Of a stretch of DNA of 41,369 nt, positions 599 through 25,887 are shown one piece after another (positions within the stretch are counted from its first letter, which is position 1; every line of letters starts with the position of its first letter). A model generated the notes under the pieces. It ran no database searches. It worked only from the letters and a program-made list of their open reading frames with translations, and was not told the DNA's origin. The DNA is from a virus, in the IMG/VR virus record IMGVR_UViG_3300006622_000024, positions 1-41,369 of that record; one strand, 5' to 3'. The position numbers and the translations under genes were made by a program.

Positions 599-820
599 TT
601 ATTTTTTTCCACCTTTCATGTTAGCACACCAGTGGTACATTTTACCTTTTTCACCTCCGTACTTCTTTGCTTTTGCTCTCAATGAAGATACAGAACCTTT
701 ACAGCTAGCACCAGATTTTTTTACACGACCGGGTCTCGACTTACCTTTTTTCTTTCCGTCTTTGAAGTTTTCGGTAGCAAGTATTTCACCTATCATCTGT
801 GCTAACGTAAGTCTAGTCAT
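599..820 (-). CDS. Small basic protein, Lys/Arg-rich, possible virion protein
   Basis: A 73-residue, strongly basic protein. Residues 1-17 form a leader (MTRLTLAQMIGEILATE) containing I-G-E, similar to leaders on other proteins here and to the (I/L)xE rule of T4 prohead-protease sites. The rest has a KSRPGRVKKSGASC stretch and a C-terminal MYHWCANMKGGKK. I recall this C-terminal type from uncharacterised marine phage proteins but cannot name a family. Its start codon overlaps the stop of the upstream gene (TAATG), so the two are probably translationally coupled. DNA binding or virion location is inference from charge and leader only. Confidence 0.8.
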   Translation of the reverse strand: MTRLTLAQMIGEILATENFKDGKKKGKSRPGRVKKSGASCKGSVSSLRAKAKKYGGEKGKMYHWCANMKGGKK

Positions 821-1393: not shown

Positions 1394-1972
1394 TTAATCT
1401 AGGTGGTCGTCAATAATTGCAAGATATTCTTTTAAGTTATTCAATACCTTGTCATTTTGTGCTTTAGCGTTTCCTTTCCAGTCTTCTATTACACCCTGTT
1501 CGGTTACAAAAGTTTGTGTGCTTTGTACATACATATCTACCCATTCAGAAAGGTCCTTGCTAAAAGCTTTCATATTTCCTTGAATCATACTTTTTTCGTA
1601 CTTATCAAACAAACCAGCTTTTCTTAATTCAGCCTCATAATTAATAGTACAGTCAAAGCAGAACCCATGTATTTTATACATTTTCTTATGTATACGGTGA
1701 TTCATACTACCGCCACATTTAGGGCATGCTAATGGTACTCTAACTGCTTTTTTAGCAGCATCTAGTTTAGTTACATTCTGCTTAATACCGTTTTTTATAG
1801 TCCAAGTCTTACCCGACTCTTCCCATATGTCACCTTCTTTATGTGATCTGTGAGCTTTAGAATAACCTGACTGCAATTTAGTTTTCGCAGTAAAATCTTT
1901 TTTAACTATATTCCTTACTCTCTGTACATCTGAATGTTTAAACTCTTTTTTAAGTAGAGATTCTTTACTCAT
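1394..1972 (-). CDS. Zinc-ribbon-containing hypothetical protein
   Basis: A 192-residue protein with a four-cysteine zinc-ribbon pattern: C83-x2-C86 (ACPKCGG) and C105-x2-C108 (GFCFDC). The N-terminal 80 residues are basic, and the C-terminal 80 are helical and mostly acidic. The ribbon may bind nucleic acid or organise a small structural fold. I do not recognise the full-length family. Its ATG overlaps the end of the HAD gene upstream by 8 bp, indicating an operon. Confidence 0.8.
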   Translation of the reverse strand: MSKESLLKKEFKHSDVQRVRNIVKKDFTAKTKLQSGYSKAHRSHKEGDIWEESGKTWTIKNGIKQNVTKLDAAKKAVRVPLACPKCGGSMNHRIHKKMYKIHGFCFDCTINYEAELRKAGLFDKYEKSMIQGNMKAFSKDLSEWVDMYVQSTQTFVTEQGVIEDWKGNAKAQNDKVLNNLKEYLAIIDDHLD

Positions 1973-2507
1973 AACCTAGTTCTTTTAACTGCTCTATAAC
2001 GCTATCTACATCGCCGCCTTTACATCTTATTGCTATGCCGCCATGTGAAGCCCATTCTTTTATGTTTGACTTTTTATCATCTATTAATATAGCATTTTCT
2101 CTTGAATATCTCTGTTTATCAGCAGAATATGCAAATATTGTTTTTGGTTTAGGGTTAAGATTATTTTTAACCCATAAGTTTTTTCCTAATCTAGAATTAT
2201 CATGCCTTGAAGGAGACGTAAGTAAGTCTGGTTGATATGGTTTAATAAACTCCCAAAGTTTCTTACCTTGAGGCATCCAGTCCATTCCTACCCAGAACCT
2301 TACTCCAACTTTAACATCAATAAGCTCCCAAAATGCAGGAGTTCCTTTTGCTTTCTCATATTCTTGAGGATGCATTCCACTAAAATGTTCGAATCTTTTT
2401 TCGAAGTCAGTTAGTACTCCATCCATATCGCAGTATATTTTATACGGCGGTGTTTTCTTTTCTTCAGGAAGCGGATACGCTTCTAATAAATCTACTAATT
2501 TTCCCAT
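1965..2507 (-). CDS. HAD-superfamily phosphatase, 5'-nucleotidase-like
   Basis: A 180-residue protein. HAD motif I is CDMDGVLTD (nucleophile D27, acid/base D29) and the motif III/IV area is ILIDDKKSN. HAD enzymes of this size with DMDGVLxD are often deoxyribonucleotidases, fitting nucleotide salvage during infection, but the substrate cannot be read from sequence. The first residues MGKLVDLLEA contain L-L-E, so this may also carry the leader discussed for head-packaged proteins. The start context AAAGGTTATG matches that of the promoter-driven genes further right, although no TTG-N19-TAnnTT site is seen here. It is followed by the zinc-ribbon gene with an 8-bp overlap. Confidence 0.85.
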   Translation of the reverse strand: MGKLVDLLEAYPLPEEKKTPPYKIYCDMDGVLTDFEKRFEHFSGMHPQEYEKAKGTPAFWELIDVKVGVRFWVGMDWMPQGKKLWEFIKPYQPDLLTSPSRHDNSRLGKNLWVKNNLNPKPKTIFAYSADKQRYSRENAILIDDKKSNIKEWASHGGIAIRCKGGDVDSVIEQLKELGYE

Positions 2508-2512
2508 AACCT

Positions 2513-4420
2513 TTATAATTTTTGTTTTATTCCTAGTGACTTAAGTCTTAAGCCCCATACTCTTTTAACATCTTCAACTTCTTGTTTAGTTAAAAATGGT
2601 TCTCCTTTATCGTTGTATTGATCTGTAAATTGATATAAATATTGATCTACAATATCAACGAATGGTCTTTTAGCTTTTTTAGCTGTTAAATAAAGACCTT
2701 GTATGTTAGCATCTATTTCAGAAGGTAAAGTTAAATACTTCATTCCGTTTTTTACAATGCCATCTCTAATTTTAGTTCTGAATCTCATCTCCTCTTCAGT
2801 ACCAAACTCTCCTCTAAACTGAGCGTCTTTGTCAAAGGATTTACCTCTTTCGTTACCGCCTGCTTGAGTTAAGTGTTCTATTTCATGTCTTAGCACATCA
2901 GTAATTTGACTTGATAGTTCTTCAAAGTCTCTAGGGAAATTATAAGGGTCAAGAACAAATTCTAATTCTATCTTTGGTTGTACCCAACCTCCTTTAGTTT
3001 CACCTCCTTTATATGCTCCTCCATTTCTCATTATAGAGTTTACACCTTTAGCGAAAATTACTTTAAGGTCATAGTCAAACTCTAAGTCTGTTTCTTTTTG
3101 AAACTTTTTATCTATATCGTCCGGTATGTCCATAATTAAAATAGGATATACTTCGTCGGCTGCATTCTTTAGAGCTACTTGAGCATCTGTAGTTTTAGGA
3201 TCTCCAAAATGTCCTTCTTTATAATGATGAAGTTTTTTTCTAAGAGCCATTTTTACTGCTTCAATACTTTTGTTGGTAAGGTAGGTAGTAATAGCATCGT
3301 ACTTACCTTCTGTTATAGTCTCTTTAACTGTATCAACATTATTTTTTATTCCATCTTCCCAGTTACGGAAAGTAATATTCCCTAGTAAGTATGCTTCTTG
3401 CTCTAATTTAAGTAGTCCTTCATCTGCAGTAGTATCTGATGTCTTTACATCTGTCAATCTTCCTTCTAGATTTTGTATATGATGAATCATCTCATGAGTA
3501 AATGATCTACAAATATCTTTAGGGTGTCTATCGGTTGCATATAAAACGATTTCTTTATTATTAGGATCATAATATGCTGTTTTACCGAAAAAGTCTTTAG
3601 CGTTGTCTTCATCGTACCTAACTTTAACTTCAGGTAACGGCTGTATGTTCATACCTTTATCAAGCATATACTCTAAAATAGAGCCGATATGCTTAGTTAA
3701 TTCAGGTACTTCTTTTTTATCTTCCTGTATGCCATAAGTCTCACAAGGGTTTTTACCGCAACCACAATTCTCTTCTATACCAAAGTACTCATTTATAAAT
3801 CCATCAATATTGTTTGATAATACTTCAGCAACAATTTTATCTTTAAGGTCTGTAAGTATGGACATTATTTGTTCTTTAGATAGTTCTGGAGGAAAGAAGT
3901 CGATAATCTTATCTAAGTTACCAGAAAGAATACTTTTTCTAAAATCAGTAGCTCTAACTGCATCTTTAGGAGAAGAGGCTAATGCTAATCCTTGTACGTT
4001 AGGAGCATTTTTAAATGTTGTGACTCTTCTCAAGTCTACAAAATCTTGCTCTCCTCTTATTCCAGTAACTGCAACAAACTCTTCTTTTGAGTTAGCAACA
4101 GCATAATCTTTAGCAGCAAACATTGGATTCTTTTGTCCGTCTTGTATCTCTACATTTCCTAAATGCTTAGCGTACATCTGCCATATAGACATCGACTCAT
4201 CCTTTGATATACCGTTTCTCTCACCTGCACCAACAAAAACAATAACCTTATCTATCTTAGGTTTTTTATCACTGGTGCCACTCATTAAAGCAGCTCCTTT
4301 TTCTTTATAGTCATCTTTAGTATACACAGCACCATTATACGAACCGTCAAGTAATGTTTTGACAACGTTAAAATGTCCTCTATGAGGTGGTTTAAATGCT
4401 CCTGGGTATAATGCTATCAT
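2513..4420 (-). CDS. Nucleotidyltransferase fused to two HExxH zincin-like regions
   Basis: A 635-residue multidomain protein. Residues 1-170 form a cytidylyltransferase/NMNAT-like nucleotidyltransferase: GAFKPPHRGH has the HxGH motif (H13, H16), and RATDFRKS near 156-163 sits where the second conserved motif is expected. A cysteine cluster (NCGCGKNPC, about 218-226) follows. Region A around 300-345 carries HEMIH (H309, E310, H313) with a candidate Glu ligand near 342. Region B around 505-600 carries HEIEH (H512, E513, H516) with a candidate ligand in PSEIDA. Cytidylyltransferase genes occur in marine T4-like phages. The pairing with two metallopeptidase-like regions is unusual. Substrates are unknown; a role in head maturation or host protein processing is speculative. 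It overlaps the kinase gene upstream by 4 bp. Confidence 0.85.
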   Translation of the reverse strand: MIALYPGAFKPPHRGHFNVVKTLLDGSYNGAVYTKDDYKEKGAALMSGTSDKKPKIDKVIVFVGAGERNGISKDESMSIWQMYAKHLGNVEIQDGQKNPMFAAKDYAVANSKEEFVAVTGIRGEQDFVDLRRVTTFKNAPNVQGLALASSPKDAVRATDFRKSILSGNLDKIIDFFPPELSKEQIMSILTDLKDKIVAEVLSNNIDGFINEYFGIEENCGCGKNPCETYGIQEDKKEVPELTKHIGSILEYMLDKGMNIQPLPEVKVRYDEDNAKDFFGKTAYYDPNNKEIVLYATDRHPKDICRSFTHEMIHHIQNLEGRLTDVKTSDTTADEGLLKLEQEAYLLGNITFRNWEDGIKNNVDTVKETITEGKYDAITTYLTNKSIEAVKMALRKKLHHYKEGHFGDPKTTDAQVALKNAADEVYPILIMDIPDDIDKKFQKETDLEFDYDLKVIFAKGVNSIMRNGGAYKGGETKGGWVQPKIELEFVLDPYNFPRDFEELSSQITDVLRHEIEHLTQAGGNERGKSFDKDAQFRGEFGTEEEMRFRTKIRDGIVKNGMKYLTLPSEIDANIQGLYLTAKKAKRPFVDIVDQYLYQFTDQYNDKGEPFLTKQEVEDVKRVWGLRLKSLGIKQKL

Positions 4421-5364
4421 GCTAAAAATGCTTGTACTTTTTGATCTATTTCTCTAGGAGTAGAGTGTTCTAATTTCTCTTGAAACTTAGGACTGTAAAT
4501 CATATCTACTATATTGTCTAAAACTTCGTCAGCTTTTTGATCTCTTACTGCTTTTTTCTCTCTATATTTTTTTACTTCGTCTCTAAGTTTATCTTGACCA
4601 GGACCTACTCCATTCTTTCTGTATGCTTTAAGGAAAGCGTTTTTAATAGCTTTATCTTCTGATCTATTATCTTTATCCCAATCAACACTACCTACGTGCT
4701 TGTTAAACTCTTCTTCTTCTTCCGTAGACATTTCTACTGGTTTAAAGAATGATGAACCGCCAATTCCTTGTTTTTGGTTATATTTTTCTAGGTAGTCTTT
4801 AACACCGCTCAATCCGTTTTTAGCTGCTGTATCAAATCCTTCTACTTCTTTTTTAAATTTACCTCCTCTATCACTAACGTGTATAGAAAGATTACCTCCT
4901 AATAATTTATCGTATTCAGCAATTTTTTGATATACATTTCTCCAAGTTGAAAAAACTGCATCTGCAGGAACCATTCTTTCTACTCTAGAAAAGTTAGAAA
5001 TATAAGAGATCATTGGATGAGTATAAACCATTACCATATAGACCTTATACTTTTTAGCAAGTAGGTCTTTAAGTTGCTTCTCGAATCTAACACCAGAAGC
5101 TGTAGTATCCCAAACAAAGCTAGTCTTGTCTTCTGATGCTGCTGCTACGTCCTTGGCTACTTGATTGGACGCGGGACCTAGTTTGTTGTAATACGGGTGC
5201 TCCGGATCCTCCACGTACTTGTCGGGGTTGAACTGAACGAGGCTGTCTAGGGACAACTGGTTTAGTAGGTAGGTTTTCCCTGACCCTGCTCCCCCTGCCA
5301 TTATTACTGCTTTCGGGCCTGACGTAGATTCTAGGATTAGATCTGATAGTTTTATCATCGTCAT
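4417..5364 (-). CDS. P-loop kinase, zeta-toxin/AAA_33-like, with head-targeting-type leader
   Basis: A 315-residue protein. Residues 1-12 (MTMIKLSDLILE) match the recurring leader and end in I-L-E. Walker A is GGAGSGKT (about 24-31), followed by FNPDKY near 46-51 and FVWDTTASG near 84-92. This layout resembles zeta toxins and polynucleotide-kinase-type P-loop kinases. The C-terminal half is charged and helical. Kinase activity is predicted but the substrate is unknown. If the leader works as in T4, the protein would be packaged in the head and injected. The first 245 bp also encode the tail of the lipoprotein gene in another frame, and local GC rises to about 52%, against 38% just downstream. 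Confidence 0.85.
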   Translation of the reverse strand: MTMIKLSDLILESTSGPKAVIMAGGAGSGKTYLLNQLSLDSLVQFNPDKYVEDPEHPYYNKLGPASNQVAKDVAAASEDKTSFVWDTTASGVRFEKQLKDLLAKKYKVYMVMVYTHPMISYISNFSRVERMVPADAVFSTWRNVYQKIAEYDKLLGGNLSIHVSDRGGKFKKEVEGFDTAAKNGLSGVKDYLEKYNQKQGIGGSSFFKPVEMSTEEEEEFNKHVGSVDWDKDNRSEDKAIKNAFLKAYRKNGVGPGQDKLRDEVKKYREKKAVRDQKADEVLDNIVDMIYSPKFQEKLEHSTPREIDQKVQAFLA

Positions 5365-6043
5365 TGTTATTAATTGTTCTTCTTTTATTTACTCTTACTC
5401 TTATCTCATCAGCTATTTCATCAACTGATAATGTATTGCCAGCTGTTGCTGTTCTAGGTAACCTTCTACTTACATTAGTTCGGTTTTCAGTTACATTACT
5501 TGAACCTCTTCTACCGTTGATATATGCAACGTTTCGGTTAGTTCTTTCTCTATAATAATAATTAGGGTAATAATGTGAGTTATAACCTAAATAAGGGTTA
5601 TATCTATTCCAGTAATTATTATAACTATAACCATAGTACCATGAATTATTCCAAAATGGATCATTCCAAGTATAAGGATATCCCCAAGCCCAGTCATGCC
5701 ACATTTGTGTTCTATTCCAATAGTAATTATAGTTATAGAAAGACCCCCATCTATTGAATCTATTATATCTAAATCCTAATAGTCTGTTATTCCAATCAAA
5801 TGATCTAGGTTGACTTAGAGCGTATTGAGCATAGTCAAATCTGAATCGAAAATCATTTCTTATCTTATTTCTAAATTGAAATTCATTCAGTGTGTCTATT
5901 TTTACTGTATGTGTTGAGTTATAAATTCCATCAACATGTCCTGCGTGATTAAGTGTAGCGTATTTAAATTGTAGTCCTGCACAAGAGGATAAGAATAATA
6001 CTGCGATGAGCCAAGAAATGAAGATTTTTATTTTATAATTCAT
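5120..6043 (-). CDS. Aromatic-rich lipoprotein with long C-terminal overlap
   Basis: A 307-residue predicted lipoprotein. The signal peptide (about 1-21) ends in the lipobox LSSC (Cys21). Residues 85-170 are extremely rich in Tyr, Trp and Asn, for example YNYNYYWNRTQMWHDW. The rest is Arg/Ser-rich. Similar YN/WN-rich lipoproteins are common in Flavobacteriia. The last 81 residues are read from DNA that also encodes the N-terminus of the downstream kinase in another frame. They remain open and Arg/Gln/Ser-rich, which suggests real coding. The likely site is the host outer membrane; superinfection exclusion is a plausible but untested role. The start lies 4 bp beyond the nuclease stop. Confidence 0.8.
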   Translation of the reverse strand: MNYKIKIFISWLIAVLFLSSCAGLQFKYATLNHAGHVDGIYNSTHTVKIDTLNEFQFRNKIRNDFRFRFDYAQYALSQPRSFDWNNRLLGFRYNRFNRWGSFYNYNYYWNRTQMWHDWAWGYPYTWNDPFWNNSWYYGYSYNNYWNRYNPYLGYNSHYYPNYYYRERTNRNVAYINGRRGSSNVTENRTNVSRRLPRTATAGNTLSVDEIADEIRVRVNKRRTINNNDDDKTIRSNPRIYVRPESSNNGRGSRVRENLPTKPVVPRQPRSVQPRQVRGGSGAPVLQQTRSRVQSSSQGRSSSIRRQD

Positions 6044-6047
6044 AATT

Positions 6048-6833
6048 TTATTTTAATGTTACAGTGGTTGGGTAACTATTATAAATAGGTTCAGTATTGG
6101 GGTTCTCTAATGAATATAGTTTATAGATCATTTGAAACAACTCAAAGTTTTGTTCTATATCATCAATTACCTTTACTTGCCACCCTTTACCTTGATACAC
6201 TCCTTTCTTCTTAGAGGCTGATCTTGTATGTGCTTTTAGCCATATAATTCCAGTTCTATCTATCTTAATACCTTTTGACTCTTCGAGAGCTTTAGCATAA
6301 GAAGCTAATTGTAGGTCGTAAGATTTATGTATACTATTAGAAGTTTTTATATCTAATAGCCATGTCTCACCATCCATCTTAACAACTAAGTCAGCTGTTC
6401 CTGCATACTTATGTTCGTCGGACCATACAAAGTCTTCTGCAGATATAAGTTCTGGTTTATGTGTACGCCAGAAGTCAGCAAACTTAAGAATCATTTCCCA
6501 TACTATTTGAGAGTATTTAGCTCTGCCGTAATCATCCATCCATGCAACTTCGTTACCTAAAACTAATTGCTCACATGCTTCATGTACTTGAGTTCCTTCT
6601 TTACCTGCTTTACGCATAATAAGATCGGCGTTATGCCCAACGTCCTTCATCCATGTTTCGAAGAACTTATTCTTGGGCATATATTGGAGTATGGTTGTTA
6701 CGGACGGGTAGTATACTCCTTCGCCTCTCTTATAGACTCTGCGGTCTAAGAAATTAATTTGCTTTAACTCTGGGTTAAAGTCTAGTCTATTCTTCTCGTT
6801 TTGTTCGAGAATGTTCATACCTTGTTTTATCAT
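6048..6833 (-). CDS. PD-(D/E)XK nuclease, RecB/Cas4-like exonuclease fold
   Basis: A 261-residue protein with ordered RecB-family motifs: H84 with nearby acidic residues, GTADLV (D148), LLDIKTS (D161, K163) and QLASYA (Q175, Y179). These are the metal-binding and catalytic positions of PD-(D/E)XK nucleases. A role in phage recombination or in degrading host DNA fits its position just after primase. The annotated start MIKQGMNIL overlaps the primase end by 4 bp; M6 is an alternative start. Codon use and spacing match the neighbours. Confidence 0.88.
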   Translation of the reverse strand: MIKQGMNILEQNEKNRLDFNPELKQINFLDRRVYKRGEGVYYPSVTTILQYMPKNKFFETWMKDVGHNADLIMRKAGKEGTQVHEACEQLVLGNEVAWMDDYGRAKYSQIVWEMILKFADFWRTHKPELISAEDFVWSDEHKYAGTADLVVKMDGETWLLDIKTSNSIHKSYDLQLASYAKALEESKGIKIDRTGIIWLKAHTRSASKKKGVYQGKGWQVKVIDDIEQNFELFQMIYKLYSLENPNTEPIYNSYPTTVTLK

Positions 6834-7753
6834 AGGTCTAGTTTATGCATCATTAGACTAGAAAAGTCTAACTCATCTGCTGATTGTACGTGTTCGGTAA
6901 AGCTTTCAAATCCCATCTCACTAGGATCTTTACCCTTCATTGTAATATTATATACTCTAAATCCTGCATTTAAAAATCTTTCTGATAGTTCCATAGCAGT
7001 ATCTTGTGCGTCTTCGTCTAATGCAATATAGATATCTGTAAGTGAACTTTGGAGTATTTTCTTCCATAACGCATCAGAAATATTCTTCCCTAGGATAGGG
7101 ATTGCATTTCGTTTAATAGCCATTGCATCAAATACTCCTTCACAGAGTATGATAGGCTTGCTCCAGTTAATAAGGTTTTCGAAAAATATTATGTCTTTGG
7201 AAGCTTCTGGATTTTTGTATTTAAAATAGTTGCCATCAAAGCTTCTCGCAACAAAATAGTTGAGTGTGTTGGATGCAGAATAACTTGGAATAATAACTCG
7301 TCCTCCATATTCTCCAGTTGTTGCATATCCAATGCCATATTTAATAAAATCATAGTCGGTAAGTCCTCTCTCATATAAGTATTTTCTTACTAAGTTAGCT
7401 ACAACCGATTCCTTTGAGGCACTGTATAAAGTTTGATACTCCGGAGGAAGCTCTATTATAGATAGTCCTTTATATTCTATAAACGATCCTTTCGGAACAA
7501 ACTTTAAGATCTCGTTTGCTTGATCTTGTGGTGTTTTTAGTTGCTTAAGTAATGAACGGATAGATTGTCCACGAGTTTGACATACCCAACATTCCCAGAA
7601 GTTTTTACCTTCTTCGGTTGTATGCATATTGATCTCTAGTTTAGGCTTGCGGTGATTGCAAAATGGACAATGGAAAGCATGATTAGCTCTAGCTCTCTTA
7701 TGACTCTTACCTAAAATATTCTCAATGGACCCTAATAAAAAAGTATAATCCAT
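6830..7753 (-). CDS. DNA primase, T4 gp61-like (zinc finger plus TOPRIM)
   Basis: A 307-residue protein, slightly shorter than T4 gp61. The N-terminal CHC2-type zinc finger has C29-x2-C32 and C55-x2-C58 (HCPFC, CWVC). The TOPRIM core follows: LCEGVFDAMAIK near 204-215 supplies the catalytic Glu and ALDEDAQDT near 245-253 supplies the DxD. The protein should synthesise RNA primers for lagging-strand replication together with a gp41-type helicase, which is not in this window. A TTG-N19-TAnnTT promoter lies just upstream (7776-7806). It overlaps the nuclease gene by 4 bp, forming a replication/recombination unit. Confidence 0.92.
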   Translation of the reverse strand: MDYTFLLGSIENILGKSHKRARANHAFHCPFCNHRKPKLEINMHTTEEGKNFWECWVCQTRGQSIRSLLKQLKTPQDQANEILKFVPKGSFIEYKGLSIIELPPEYQTLYSASKESVVANLVRKYLYERGLTDYDFIKYGIGYATTGEYGGRVIIPSYSASNTLNYFVARSFDGNYFKYKNPEASKDIIFFENLINWSKPIILCEGVFDAMAIKRNAIPILGKNISDALWKKILQSSLTDIYIALDEDAQDTAMELSERFLNAGFRVYNITMKGKDPSEMGFESFTEHVQSADELDFSSLMMHKLDL

Positions 7754-7775
7754 AGACCTGTCCGTATCTTTTTAT

Positions 7776-7806
7776 ATAAGATAAGAACTTTTATTCGAAT
7801 AGACAA
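7776..7806 (-). promoter_or_regulatory. Promoter, TTGT-N19-TATCTTAT, before primase
   Basis: On the minus strand, TTGT (7806-7803) is followed after exactly 19 nt by TATCTTAT (7783-7776), 22 nt upstream of the primase ATG. Eight other sites in the window share the TTG box, the 19-nt spacing and a TAnnTT box. The form resembles the Bacteroidota housekeeping promoter. It begins next to the stop of the 66-residue gene upstream. Confidence 0.65.
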
Positions 7807-8007
7807 CTATTCTTCAGTATTTAATAGTAGTTCTTTTATTGCTGAGGAGACAGTTTTTCGAAGTATTTCTTTGTTTTCTATGTCTAGATAGTCCTCTAAC
7901 TTGTTAGTTATTGATTCGGTAAGTTTTTTTACATCATTACTTGAGATTGCTAATTCTTCTCGAACTACGTATCTTTTATTCTCTAGTATGATTTTGGATA
8001 GTTTCAT
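7807..8007 (-). CDS. Small protein with MKLSKIILE leader, possible internal head protein
   Basis: A 66-residue protein. The first nine residues MKLSKIILE match the leader repeated in several neighbours and end in I-L-E, like a T4 prohead-protease site. The remainder is a charged, probably helical mini-protein (residues 25-60). The function is not recognisable. It lies 4 nt after the stop of the 101-residue gene, which carries an almost identical leader. Confidence 0.75.
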   Translation of the reverse strand: MKLSKIILENKRYVVREELAISSNDVKKLTESITNKLEDYLDIENKEILRKTVSSAIKELLLNTEE

Positions 8008-8011
8008 ATCA

Positions 8012-8317
8012 TTAGCTTACGTCCATTGCATCGTCGAAGTCTGCCACAATTCCTTTTTCCTTCAATGCATCGACAATTTTTCTTAAGTGATTAGTTGCAT
8101 AATTTCTAGGTAATTCTAATCCAGTTAGGTTCTTTATGTATTCACTAGCTTCATCAAAGTGTAGCTTTTCTCTAGGGGTACCGAATGGTAGGTTAGCAGT
8201 TTGAGGTAGAGGGTGTAAATATGCACCATAAAATCGTCCGAAATCAGTATAAGTTAATCCTATACCTTTCACTTCGAAATTTGGTTTACCTTCTAATATG
8301 ATATCTGCTAGTTTCAT
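8012..8317 (-). CDS. Small protein with MKLADIILE leader, possible internal head protein
   Basis: A 101-residue protein beginning MKLADIILEGKPNFEVKGIG, with the same leader as 7807-8007 followed by an unrelated body. The body includes YTDFGRFYGAYLHPLPQ and a mixed helical C-terminus. It resembles short uncharacterised proteins of marine T4-like phages, but I cannot name a family. Packaging in the head is inferred only from the leader. Its ATG overlaps the TGA of the 45-residue gene upstream (ATGA). Confidence 0.78.
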   Translation of the reverse strand: MKLADIILEGKPNFEVKGIGLTYTDFGRFYGAYLHPLPQTANLPFGTPREKLHFDEASEYIKNLTGLELPRNYATNHLRKIVDALKEKGIVADFDDAMDVS

Positions 8318-8483: not shown

Positions 8484-10031
8484 CTATAAATATCTATCAA
8501 ATCCCTTTAGTAAGCTTTGATTATATTTTTCTGTATAATGTTGGTCTACTTCTTTTATGATTCCTAGAGCATTTTTAAAGTCCACAGATTTAATCATTTC
8601 TTCTCTCGAATCAAAGTACTTAATACCATCTAAGTCAAAGTATTTTACATCGCCGTCGTCTCTAAACGATGTATTGTATGCACTTACTATATCAGTTAAA
8701 ACTATATTATTATCTAAGGCATTCATAAAATGTTTCAGTATGACAGGGTATAAAGTACTTTCTCTTACGTACGGTTTCCAATCTCCCCAAGCAGGGTGTA
8801 CATTATATTTTTTCCATATGATATCTTCTTCTGGGATTTTTTCTTGAATAGCATATAATACCCCTTTGTATAATCCTGCATGATATAGTTTAGGGACTAT
8901 TCCTAAATCAAATAATATATCATCCGTCTGAAGGATTGTTAGAAGTATTTCTTTAGAGGCTGCAGGAGTTGCTCTATGAAATGCATCTCTACTTAAAGTA
9001 GCTTTACATGGATATATAAATTTAAGTACGTATTTATCAAAATAAAAGACCTTGTGAAAATATCTAAAATCAGAAGATTGCTTTATTGCTTGTTTATATC
9101 TACCTTCTATCAACTCTATTATATCTCTTTCACCAAAGAATCTAAATTTATTTTTGTAGAGTTTTAATTTATTCTCAGCATTAGCTTCTATTTCTTCCCA
9201 GTTAGTATCCTTAGATTCAAATTTATTTCTCTCAGGGATGTGATACTTGTGTATTTTTACATCGTTAGTAAAACAATTTATTCCTGCACCTAAGTCTACT
9301 TCAAATCTCTTTCCTAATTCCTCTCCTAGCCAAGGTTGAATAGTTTTAGGCCATTCACCAACCTTTCCAGACCTAAAATCATTAGAAGTGTATATAACAT
9401 CTTTATTCTTTTTAAATCGAACATCAACTAATTTATCTACTGATTGATTTAAAAATTTACCTATTCTATTCACTGTAGATTCGTATTCATTAATCACTTC
9501 ATTAAAATATACTAGTTCTATATCAAGATCAAGAATCTCTTTACTCATGTATACTGAGAACCAATTTTTATAGTATCGTAATAGTAATTCAAAGAAATTA
9601 TCATATTTTTCGTCGATCAACTCGTAACCATCGTAATCAAAAGTGTTGTAGAAGTTTTCAAAAGTTTTATACTTTTCCTTATGTTTTGGTCTGAGAAAGC
9701 ATGAGTTAATTACATCTCTTATGTCTCTGAATACAAGTATAATTTTAGATTCAGAAAAATATTTATCTAAGGTGTTTAAATCTTCTCTACTGTGAGGACG
9801 TTTATAATAGTTTTTATAATCATGTAGATGTGTCCAAGTTACTTGATTACCTTTATTCATCGCTCCAGTAAACTTAGGCATTTCATCTGTATACTCATAG
9901 TAGTCTATATAGTTATAATTGATACTTTCGTATCCAAAATTATTTACTATTAAATCGACTAGTAAATGAGTTCCGCTTCGTCTAGCAGATACTACAATAA
10001 CATTTTTTTTAGTATTTGTCAATGTCAGCAA
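8484..10031 (-). CDS. Sulfotransferase-like protein fused to a kinase-like C-terminal domain
   Basis: A 515-residue protein. Residues 10-30 (VIVVSARRSGTHLLVDL) match the 5'-phosphosulfate-binding loop of PAPS sulfotransferases. ILVFRDIRDVINSCF near 98-112 matches the 3'-phosphate-binding region with its Arg and Ser. From about residue 330 a second domain resembles a small-molecule or protein kinase fold: FDKYVLKF as a beta-strand/Lys element, then LTDIVSAYNTSF and KYFDLDGIKYFD near the expected catalytic and metal sites. The kinase assignment is weaker than the sulfotransferase one. The target may be glycans, lipids, nucleosides or proteins. It overlaps the second sulfotransferase-like gene by 23 bp. 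Confidence 0.75.
   Translation of the reverse strand: MLTLTNTKKNVIVVSARRSGTHLLVDLIVNNFGYESINYNYIDYYEYTDEMPKFTGAMNKGNQVTWTHLHDYKNYYKRPHSREDLNTLDKYFSESKIILVFRDIRDVINSCFLRPKHKEKYKTFENFYNTFDYDGYELIDEKYDNFFELLLRYYKNWFSVYMSKEILDLDIELVYFNEVINEYESTVNRIGKFLNQSVDKLVDVRFKKNKDVIYTSNDFRSGKVGEWPKTIQPWLGEELGKRFEVDLGAGINCFTNDVKIHKYHIPERNKFESKDTNWEEIEANAENKLKLYKNKFRFFGERDIIELIEGRYKQAIKQSSDFRYFHKVFYFDKYVLKFIYPCKATLSRDAFHRATPAASKEILLTILQTDDILFDLGIVPKLYHAGLYKGVLYAIQEKIPEEDIIWKKYNVHPAWGDWKPYVRESTLYPVILKHFMNALDNNIVLTDIVSAYNTSFRDDGDVKYFDLDGIKYFDSREEMIKSVDFKNALGIIKEVDQHYTEKYNQSLLKGFDRYL
8485..8492 (-). promoter_or_regulatory. Candidate late-type promoter motif TATTTATA
   Basis: Minus-strand TATTTATA overlapping the stop of the sulfotransferase gene and 34 nt upstream of the ATG at 8451. 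It shares the string with sites at 17703 and 25891. Only the motif's recurrence before gene starts supports it. Confidence 0.35.
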
Positions 10032-10827
10032 TTCTTTTTGATACCTCTCTATCCAACACTACTCCGTTGTTTAAAAGCATTTTTTTATAATCATCTTCCT
10101 CTTTCATATCTAATGCATGCTCACCATGCCAATCGTATTTAAGTGCTTGCAAGCTTTCTGAAGGGTATTTATATTTCTTATAAAACTTTTTGAATCCTAA
10201 ATAATGTCTTGTGAGAGCACCATGTGAAAAGAAGTTATGAAAGTCTCCTACATTCTTATGAATAGCACGTTTATATTTTCTAGCATCGTCAACACCTAAA
10301 GGAGTATAGCCGGTAAAGTTAGAAACCTTATCTAGGAATGCTTTTTGGTTAAAGACTGCATCTTCATATCTAAGTACAGTACAATCGTCGACAAACTTTT
10401 CTTCGTAGTAGCGTATTAACTCTATTTGTTTTTGGGCTACTTGATTTAGGAATTCAGAATTATTAGTATCTTTTCTAGAATTAAGGGTGTAGTCAAATGG
10501 AGATAAATGCATGCCATTTTCGTAAAATGCTACGTTCATAGCAATCTCTCTAGGATCAGTTATAATAACAAATACTTTAGTATTAGCTTCTTTCTTTAAT
10601 TCTTCTACTAACTCATCGTTAAGTATAACGTGGCTTTTACACCAAAGTTTATTCGGTGCTAATTCAGGGAAGTTTTCTCTTATAAGCTCTTTTGAGAATT
10701 CTGAGCCAGACATTCTCCAGCTTACTAGGAGTAGTTTATTATCTGATGCTGGTCTTCTAAAATATGCATTGAAGTGGTCTACAACTACGTTAGGATTTAT
10801 TTCGTAAAGTTCATCTAACTTGCTCAA
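10009..10827 (-). CDS. Second sulfotransferase-like protein
   Basis: A 272-residue protein with the same two landmarks in weaker form. LLLVSWRMSGSEFSKELI near 32-49 resembles the 5'-phosphosulfate loop and FVIITDPREIAMNVAF near 105-120 the 3'-phosphate site. VLRYEDAV further along is a phrase typical of sulfotransferase folds. The usual Lys/Thr pattern of the first loop is changed to MSGSEF, so activity is uncertain. Overlaps on both sides (16 and 23 bp) place it in one operon with the cupin-like gene and the larger sulfotransferase, suggesting a joint pathway. Confidence 0.7.
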   Translation of the reverse strand: MSKLDELYEINPNVVVDHFNAYFRRPASDNKLLLVSWRMSGSEFSKELIRENFPELAPNKLWCKSHVILNDELVEELKKEANTKVFVIITDPREIAMNVAFYENGMHLSPFDYTLNSRKDTNNSEFLNQVAQKQIELIRYYEEKFVDDCTVLRYEDAVFNQKAFLDKVSNFTGYTPLGVDDARKYKRAIHKNVGDFHNFFSHGALTRHYLGFKKFYKKYKYPSESLQALKYDWHGEHALDMKEEDDYKKMLLNNGVVLDREVSKRIADIDKY

Positions 10828-11098
10828 TTATTTTTACTTTTAAGTTTCCTGTACCTTTTATAAGTCTATGGTACGTCTCTTTAGGTATAAAGATACGATT
10901 TAATTCTTTAGGAACCTCGTTATCTAATTGAAATTTCCAATCTGTTTCATGCAAAGCTTCGACTATACGGTCTTCTTTGTCTCTATGCCATACGAATTCG
11001 AATGAGGGAGTATCTTGAGAGAACTCTCTAATTATATAACCTTCTTCCTTTTTTTCAGAATATGGTCTACCAGTAACCTGAGAAGTTTGATCCACCAC
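10811..11098 (-). CDS. Small cupin-like phage protein
   Basis: A 95-residue protein with SFEFVWHRDKEDRIVEAL, then WKFQLDNEVPKEL, then IFIPKETYHRLIKG. The spacing of the WHRD segment and the late FIPKETYHR segment is what a single-domain cupin barrel shows, and similar short proteins occur in T4-like marine phages. A metal- or sugar-binding role cannot be decided. The start lies 32 bp inside the upstream 263-residue gene. A shorter start is possible, but no good internal ATG exists. Confidence 0.6.
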   Translation of the reverse strand: MVDQTSQVTGRPYSEKKEEGYIIREFSQDTPSFEFVWHRDKEDRIVEALHETDWKFQLDNEVPKELNRIFIPKETYHRLIKGTGNLKVKIIEQVR

Positions 11099-11858
11099 CT
11101 AATGATTTCCAATAACGGCCAATATTACATGACCAATAACCTGCTTTAGTTTTATCTTTCTTTGTAGCACATTTATGTCTTGCAGCAAAAGAAGCTCTTG
11201 CACCTCTCTTTTTTAATTTAACTGAAAGACCTGTGTCACCAAAAGAAACTTTTTTAACGTTTCCTTTTTTACTCTTAACGTAGACGTAGAATTTTTTACT
11301 ACCACCTCTTTTAGGTTTGTTAAGTTGAACCTTTTTACCTCTATACTCAGCTTCGTTCATGTAGTCAACTGAAGCTTTTAGCATATCGAATCCAGAAAAG
11401 TCAAATGTTTCGTTCTGTAACTTTACTGCTTTTCTAAAGTTTTCCATATTGATAGTCCCGCCGATAGATTCTACTAACTCTTTTACTAAGTCAAAGTCAA
11501 TCATTTCATCTATAGAAGCTGCTTCATCAATAGTATCTTCGTTTTCAACCATCTCATCAATTAAGCATCCAATTTCGAAAAGTGGATTATAGGAAGTAGA
11601 TACCATAGGTAGGTCTAAAGGTACTTTCATTCCGTTGTAGTCTCCGTACTCTCCTATATCAGTAGTTTCGATTAGATCCCTATCCTCTTCGCTAAGTTCG
11701 ATTTCTTCGTTGCTAAGAGCTTCTCTTGCTTCTTTAAACAATTGTATAAAGGCTTCAGAGTTATAACGGTAGACATGCTCATGTAAAGAGAGCTTATTGT
11801 CTATGTGGTATTGTAGTGATGGGTAACCAATAAGGTTTTTAAGTTTTATCATAGTCAA
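11067..11858 (-). CDS. Virion-type protein with basic Cys/Trp C-terminal domain
   Basis: A 263-residue protein. Residues 1-12 (MTMIKLKNLIGY) resemble the leader of the kinase gene but lack a clear (I/L)xE. Residues 50-150 are very acidic. The last 80 residues are basic and contain KKFYVYVKSKKGNVKKVSFG, then RASFAARHKC and GYWSCNIGRYW. This C-terminal domain recurs in uncharacterised proteins of phages and large DNA viruses. The acid-then-basic layout suits a head-internal or scaffold-associated protein, which is inference. Its start lies inside the GIY-YIG gene (20-bp overlap). Confidence 0.7.
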   Translation of the reverse strand: MTMIKLKNLIGYPSLQYHIDNKLSLHEHVYRYNSEAFIQLFKEAREALSNEEIELSEEDRDLIETTDIGEYGDYNGMKVPLDLPMVSTSYNPLFEIGCLIDEMVENEDTIDEAASIDEMIDFDLVKELVESIGGTINMENFRKAVKLQNETFDFSGFDMLKASVDYMNEAEYRGKKVQLNKPKRGGSKKFYVYVKSKKGNVKKVSFGDTGLSVKLKKRGARASFAARHKCATKKDKTKAGYWSCNIGRYWKSLGGGSNFSGYW

Positions 11859-25452: not shown

Positions 25453-25887
25453 TTATACTCCTGTTCTTTGTTTTGATTTTTCTTCAGCAGCTTTTAATAT
25501 AGCTGTAGCTTTTTTAGGATCAAATCCTGGTATATCACTAAAGCTTACTCCTACGTCTGCCCCTCCTGTATTAGCTAATTCTGTTACTGCTCTAGAAGCT
25601 AAATTAGGTTTTTGTACTCCACCTCCTACAAAGTTTTTAGCATCTTGAGAGGTCATCGATATTGCTGTCTGTTCTAACATGGTTTCTAATGAACCTTGCT
25701 TACCTATAGGTGTTGACCACTTTTTAGGCATTGATTCGCTAACCTTAACATATGCGTTAGCTTTCTGAAGTTTAGGTTCAGGGGTAGAGGCGATTTTAAC
25801 TGCTTCTGTAATTACATCTTGTAACTCCTCCTTTACCGCTGCTCTTACTTCTTCTCGTATGATTTTTCTTAATTGATCGAGTTTCAT
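25453..25887 (-). CDS. Small virion protein with MKLDQLRKIIREE leader
   Basis: A 144-residue protein. The first residues MKLDQLRKIIREEVRAAVKE form an amphipathic helix that contains I-R-E and resembles the leader found on other genes here. The middle is Gly/Ser/Ala-rich (NFVGGGVQKP) and the C-terminus is a short helix (FDPKKATAILKAAEE). No family is recognised. It stands between the hub-like and gp25 genes, so a tail location competes with the head location suggested by the leader. A CTATTTATA box lies only 3 nt upstream of its ATG. Confidence 0.7.
   Translation of the reverse strand: MKLDQLRKIIREEVRAAVKEELQDVITEAVKIASTPEPKLQKANAYVKVSESMPKKWSTPIGKQGSLETMLEQTAISMTSQDAKNFVGGGVQKPNLASRAVTELANTGGADVGVSFSDIPGFDPKKATAILKAAEEKSKQRTGV

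Follow-up and report, generated by a model that had tools for sequence, protein, structure and literature searches.

A conserved N-terminal leader in T4-like phages of marine Bacteroidota is probably a capsid-targeting propeptide

Do unrelated phage proteins that open with the same short N-terminus also share a destination? Within the window (the whole 41,369-base stretch of DNA analysed here, positions 1-41369 on a viral contig of 93,955 bases), three minus-strand open reading frames begin with MIKLSDLILE, MKLSKIILE and MKLADIILE, and the first-pass annotation, which had the letters and coordinates of these three strict leaders all right, likened them to the T4 targeting propeptide that ends in (L/I)xE. 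The T4 capsid-targeting sequence (CTS) consists of 10 residues, of which 4 and 7 serve targeting and 8 and 10 processing; the first ten residues of IPIII are enough for packaging, and the gp21 protease cleaves after L/I-X-E (PMC9026906). T-even phages carry CTS-like sequences on further basic proteins as well (reviewed in PMC9026906). No description of MKLxxIILE-type capsid targeting in marine Bacteroidota phages was found in the open-access literature, and no usable virion proteomics was found there for immuto, HTVC008M or T4-like phages of Bacteroidota. Sequence comparison and analogy with T4 suggest that the leader is probably a version of the T4 capsid-targeting propeptide specific to this lineage. 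Because it reads as a head-loading tag that is later cut off, ready-made enzymes, kinases among them, probably travel into the bacterium inside the phage head.

The leader in the window

The genes bearing the leader, and those with looser similarity to it, are as follows.

599..820, minus strand: small basic protein with N-terminus MTRLTLAQMIGE (relatives MTRYILTQLIREV and MTRNEMLNVLKEV); different leader type, uncertain member
1965..2507, minus strand: HAD-type 5'-3' deoxyribonucleotidase (PHROG 2643, E=1.7e-22); possible degenerate leader MGKLVDLLE at 2481-2507
4417..5328, minus strand: mature kinase, a zeta-toxin/polynucleotide-kinase type P-loop enzyme by profile and fold matches
5329..5358, minus strand: kinase leader MIKLSDLILE, a predicted capsid-targeting propeptide with its cut predicted after Glu10
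7807..7980, minus strand: small protein (66-aa precursor), conserved in relatives
7981..8007, minus strand: propeptide MKLSKIILE predicted for the 66-aa protein; MKLSKxILE in 20/20 distinct homologues, with no change at residues 1-5 and 7-9
8012..8290, minus strand: small protein (101-aa precursor), relatives found
8291..8317, minus strand: propeptide MKLADIILE predicted for the 101-aa protein; MKL[AS][DQN]IILE in all distinct homologues
11067..11858, minus strand: 263-aa protein, MIKLKNLIG from an inner ATG; resembles the leader but lacks Glu at the cut position; uncertain member
25453..25887, minus strand: 144-aa protein MKLDQLRKIIREEV with baseplate genes around it; probably outside the leader set

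Neither the 66-aa nor the 101-aa protein had a match in Pfam or PHROG. A fourth strict leader, MKLVDIILE, lies beyond the window (contig 42577-43128, which is L002:6208-6759). When the strict pattern, M.{0,1}[KR]L..[IVL][ILV].{1,2}E, was scored on the called genes of the 94 kb contig, it occurred in 4 of 146, whereas shuffling residues within N-termini gave an expectation of 0.04 (0 of 20,000 shuffles reached 4) and shuffling columns one of 0.14 (p = 5e-5). The comparison of all N-termini proposed in the first-pass annotation therefore revealed a clear enrichment of strict leaders on the contig (p <= 5e-5). In a relative of 167,696 bases (G002), the pattern was present at 7 of 193 N-termini versus none of 825 internal methionines (p = 8e-6).

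The looser forms that the same annotation had listed at 599-820, 1965-2507 and 25453-25887 do contain the letters reported, but are weaker, and the N-termini at 599-820 and 25453-25887 are KxIIREE-like, unlike the strict leader, and represent another type. The protein at 25453-25887 was excluded because it sits within a block of baseplate genes and its counterparts in G002 and immuto have a long charged helix instead of a short leader. The leader of the HAD enzyme also appears weak on sequence, and its membership is doubtful, since 22 of 28 homologues carry [LIV]xE while the remainder have LLD (two), LLN or LLG. In T4 IPIII, an Asp at position 10 stops cutting while still permitting targeting (PMC9026906). 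The 263-aa family conserves MIKLKxIIGxPSLQYH among relatives, and some variants of both this family and a 99-aa family lack a clean cut site.

Conservation across viral contigs

When IMG/VR was scanned with a degenerate nucleotide pattern encoding MKLx[DN]II[LF]E, at least 119 stretches matched and, among the matches listed, 76 of the 82 sites read were N-termini of open reading frames of at least 45 codons. The mature parts of these frames fell, among the matches listed, into at least about 19 clusters, at a threshold loose enough to merge even the kinase with another family. Leader DNA differed in all 19 cluster representatives among the matches listed (19 versions, with synonymous changes), so the conserved unit is the protein sequence and not a copied piece of DNA; a single copied DNA cassette was accordingly rejected. 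Large zinc-finger, nuclease-like proteins resembling homing endonucleases can also open with MKL[FIL]DII[LF]E (L074, L123, L127 and L096, the last a 335 kb jumbo phage contig).

For ten leader families, homologues were gathered through their mature parts only, and an [LIV]xE ending at residues 8-14 (L, I or V being allowed) was retained in 144 of 146 distinct N-termini, on contigs many of which had been chosen for holding one leader somewhere (part of the loci were gathered by the leader pattern). The kinase loci L011-L027 were gathered by internal kinase peptides only. An N-terminal [LIV]xE has a background of 15-23% of all genes versus 9-13% of internal Met positions, so a single case means little and the motif alone was rejected as too weak a criterion for membership; its retention in 144 of 146 N-termini is nonetheless striking.

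The residues around the predicted cut behave very differently from one another. In the kinase, Glu10 is invariant in an alignment of 23 homologues, while the four residues after it are the most variable (entropies of 2.2-2.8 bits, 41 sequences); beyond this spacer, PK opens the P-loop strand and the kinase fold begins with PKAVIMAGG in the 41-sequence alignment. In a 142-aa family found in relatives, the Glu moves by one residue and [LI]xE is kept (ILGE/ILYYDP versus IILE/GPLEYDP; a slash marks the predicted cut). AlphaFold models of both proteins are confident, the sole segments below pLDDT 50 being residues 1-12 of the kinase and 1-10 of the 142-aa protein, and the leader is thus placed outside the mature fold in both.

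Leader exchange and the capsid module

On sequence comparison, homologues exchange leaders while the cut motif [LIV]xE stays. For example, the kinase of contig L170 is 46% identical to that of the cultured Methylophilales phage Melnitz and shares GVYDPxIFKA after the predicted cut, but its leader is MIKLKDILNE (MIKLKDILNE/GVYDPGIFKA) where Melnitz has MKTFAELQE (MKTFAELQE/GVYDPNIFKA), which resembles the N-terminus MKTYQEFIAE of T4 IPII/IPIII, used as a control. Similarly, a 181-aa protein opens with MKLASIILE in G002 versus MKKSELVKLIKE in its immuto homologue, and a terminase-adjacent head-module protein reads MNLIDKVLLE/WSYK in G002, MSVVDKIVIE/WAFR in immuto and MDVFDKILKE/HSWR in G003. 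A second recurrent N-terminus, MxNFDLxKFLxENK, was observed on head-region proteins of immuto (L054, at 3806, 17631 and 18632) and G002 (L044, near 7000), and is possibly another targeting class.

Gene content and the relationship to immuto, a Flavobacterium phage and the closest cultured relative, place the lineage among the T4-like phages of Bacteroidota. The gp21-type protease that the first-pass annotation suggested looking for was found in relatives but not on the window's own contig: no S77 (gp21-type) protease was detected in this 94 kb fragment, which ends before the capsid genes, and portal, scaffold and capsid genes are apparently absent from its 93,955 bases. An S77 protease and gp23 are encoded in the relatives G001, G002 and G003 (the G002 protease being 75% identical to that of immuto), and the protease also occurs in 6 of 13 further long leader-bearing contigs, including a 335 kb one; the other seven contigs may be fragments. 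In G002, gp21 and the gp22-like gene flank the leader-bearing 181-aa gene. For gp23, the candidate cut site in the clade reads V-x-E and not L/I-x-E, and the lineage protease may therefore accept Val at P3.

The proposal of a T4-like targeting propeptide thus gains strong support from the comparison with relatives, where the cleavage motif is retained, the spacer is hypervariable, leaders are swapped, the leader falls outside the fold, and a leader gene lies between a gp21-type protease and the scaffold gene. For the proposal as a whole, support remains partial: no protease was detected on the contig to which the window belongs, and the HAD enzyme and two looser members are doubtful.

Several other genes of the contig were recorded alongside. 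GroEL-like, GroES-like and Hsp20-like genes stand in a row at about 83.6-86.1 kb (L004:11633-14058). At window 2513-4420, an NMN adenylyltransferase-like domain is fused to a region bearing an HExxH motif of metallopeptidase type (with a weak match to DUF6782), which together with an NAD synthetase-like gene at about 82.9-83.6 kb of the contig hints at NAD metabolism genes. Two adjacent proteins at window 8484-10827 are sulfotransferase-like by eye.

Predicted cargo

The kinase frame at 4417-5364 was called with the start MTMIKLSDLILE, while starting from the in-frame ATG at 5358 yields MIKLSDLILE. Most kinase relatives use the equivalent of that ATG or start at MKL. By profile and structural model, the enzyme belongs to the zeta toxin/polynucleotide kinase family with a P-loop kinase core. 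It matches Pfam Zeta_toxin (E=3.4e-12, 46.6 bits versus a cut-off of 22.3), profile comparison leads to PezT and Zeta with the PezT match running from profile position 11, and its fold matches bacterial polynucleotide kinase and zeta/PezT (4gp7, 3q8x, 2p5t). A predicted lipoprotein gene (window 5120-6043, minus strand) shares 245 bases, read in a different frame, with the 5' end of the kinase gene, and a lipoprotein-kinase overlap also occurs in G002 (72410-73249, kinase from 73011).

The 142-aa protein of relatives has, on modelling and sequence, a minimal protein-kinase fold: Foldseek matched it to protein kinases (E about 6e-6), and K50, D123, N128 and D141 are invariant, corresponding to the Lys, the catalytic Asp-x4-Asn and the metal-binding Asp. 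A further, weak hit was to the T7 gp0.7 kinase family (PHROG 15752, E=2.8e-4). It is possible, judging by the model, that this protein is an injected protein kinase.

Proposed mechanism and alternative explanations

If the leader acts as in T4, its 9-10 residues would bind the prohead core after translation, and the cargo would become enclosed in the prohead, where the gp21-type S77 protease would cut after the Glu of [L/I]xE, the motif whose conservation was observed. The mature protein would then stay beside the packaged DNA and be delivered with it, as in T4. Predicted cargo in the window comprises the zeta-toxin/polynucleotide-kinase type kinase and small proteins with no family match, and in relatives the minimal protein-kinase-fold protein and other families, with cargo and leader apparently swapped as separate modules among phages of the lineage.

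A shared leader could instead be a docking helix that attaches proteins to the head, neck or scaffold and is neither removed nor injected. A 99-aa leader family encoded directly after a neck/head-completion protein, and the similar start of the 263-aa family despite its missing Glu, would suit such a role; however, an invariant Glu at P1 with a hypervariable spacer behind it, and a motif kept despite one-residue shifts, are traits of a protease site rather than of a docking helix, and we consider docking unlikely. Less probable still is that the leader is a short amphipathic signal directing proteins to the host membrane, the replication compartment or the tail tube. It is indeed short, hydrophobic-polar and helix-like, and some members lie outside the head module, but a membrane signal would not be expected to need an invariant Glu, the gp21-type motif survives leader exchange between lineages, and the T4-type leader on the Melnitz version of the kinase fits capsid targeting.

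Recombination can generate short shared 5' sequences, and one gene start might have been copied onto others without any function. Against this, leader DNA varies synonymously across every representative among the matches listed, and the protein motif is conserved among distant homologues, leaving a recombination by-product with very little probability. A capsid-targeting propeptide of T4 type therefore remains by far the best explanation.

If it is correct, N-termini would directly reveal which proteins many uncultured marine phages inject, and dozens of small uncharacterised proteins would become candidate factors of first-minute host takeover or counter-defence, including a possible injected protein kinase. 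The T4 head-loading system would also reach far past enteric phages, and the leaders would offer short tags for putting cargo into other phage heads. More broadly, T4-related phages of marine Bacteroidota, kyanoviruses and jumbo phages may each use their own exchangeable loading leader (MKLxxIILE, MKTFxEL and MxWxQLTE, respectively) to load large, fast-changing enzyme sets, including the zeta-toxin-like kinase and the 142-residue protein kinase, for delivery at the onset of infection, a generalisation for and against which we see the chances as evenly balanced.

Comparison with known systems

Like the T4 CTS, the leader described here is an N-terminal peptide of about 10 residues on unrelated small proteins, has an L/I-x-E end, and is accompanied in relatives by a gp21-type protease. 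Unlike it, MKLxxIILE shares with MKTYQEFIAE only Met-Lys and the I/L-x-E end: Tyr4 and Phe7 of T4 are replaced, so the two sequences are not identical. The predicted packaging would also involve many more cargo families, including enzymes, in phages of Bacteroidota-type hosts. T4 Alt and other injected head enzymes offer a parallel in that an enzyme is predicted to be head-borne and delivered at infection; however, the present leader sits on a zeta-toxin-like kinase and, among relatives, on a protein with a minimal protein-kinase fold, and no ADP-ribosyltransferase was recognised in the leader-bearing set. In the giant phages SPN3US and phiKZ, a gp21-related protease likewise cleaves head ejection proteins on the C-terminal side of Glu, but the propeptides of these proteins vary, with no single shared leader of 9-10 residues (PMC9026906 and general knowledge).

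The Agrobacterium jumbo phage Atu_ph07 provides a further parallel. Its gene cluster 31-76 contributes 29 products to virions by mass spectrometry, a count for the whole cluster (PMC6102473). A tandem array at L180:9485-20001 encodes about ten proteins that start M[KR]WxxL[TNI]E and contain a YRGM/YRGI motif; these are ADP-ribosyltransferase-like by eye, and two examined singly had no Pfam match. A kinase domain homologous to that of the window follows VTE/GVNDKHIFKA in a protein starting MKWNDLNE, and nine neighbours of this protein, all within gene cluster 31-76, start M[KR]W[EHQD]QL[TNI]E, a leader consensus that differs from MKLxxIILE.
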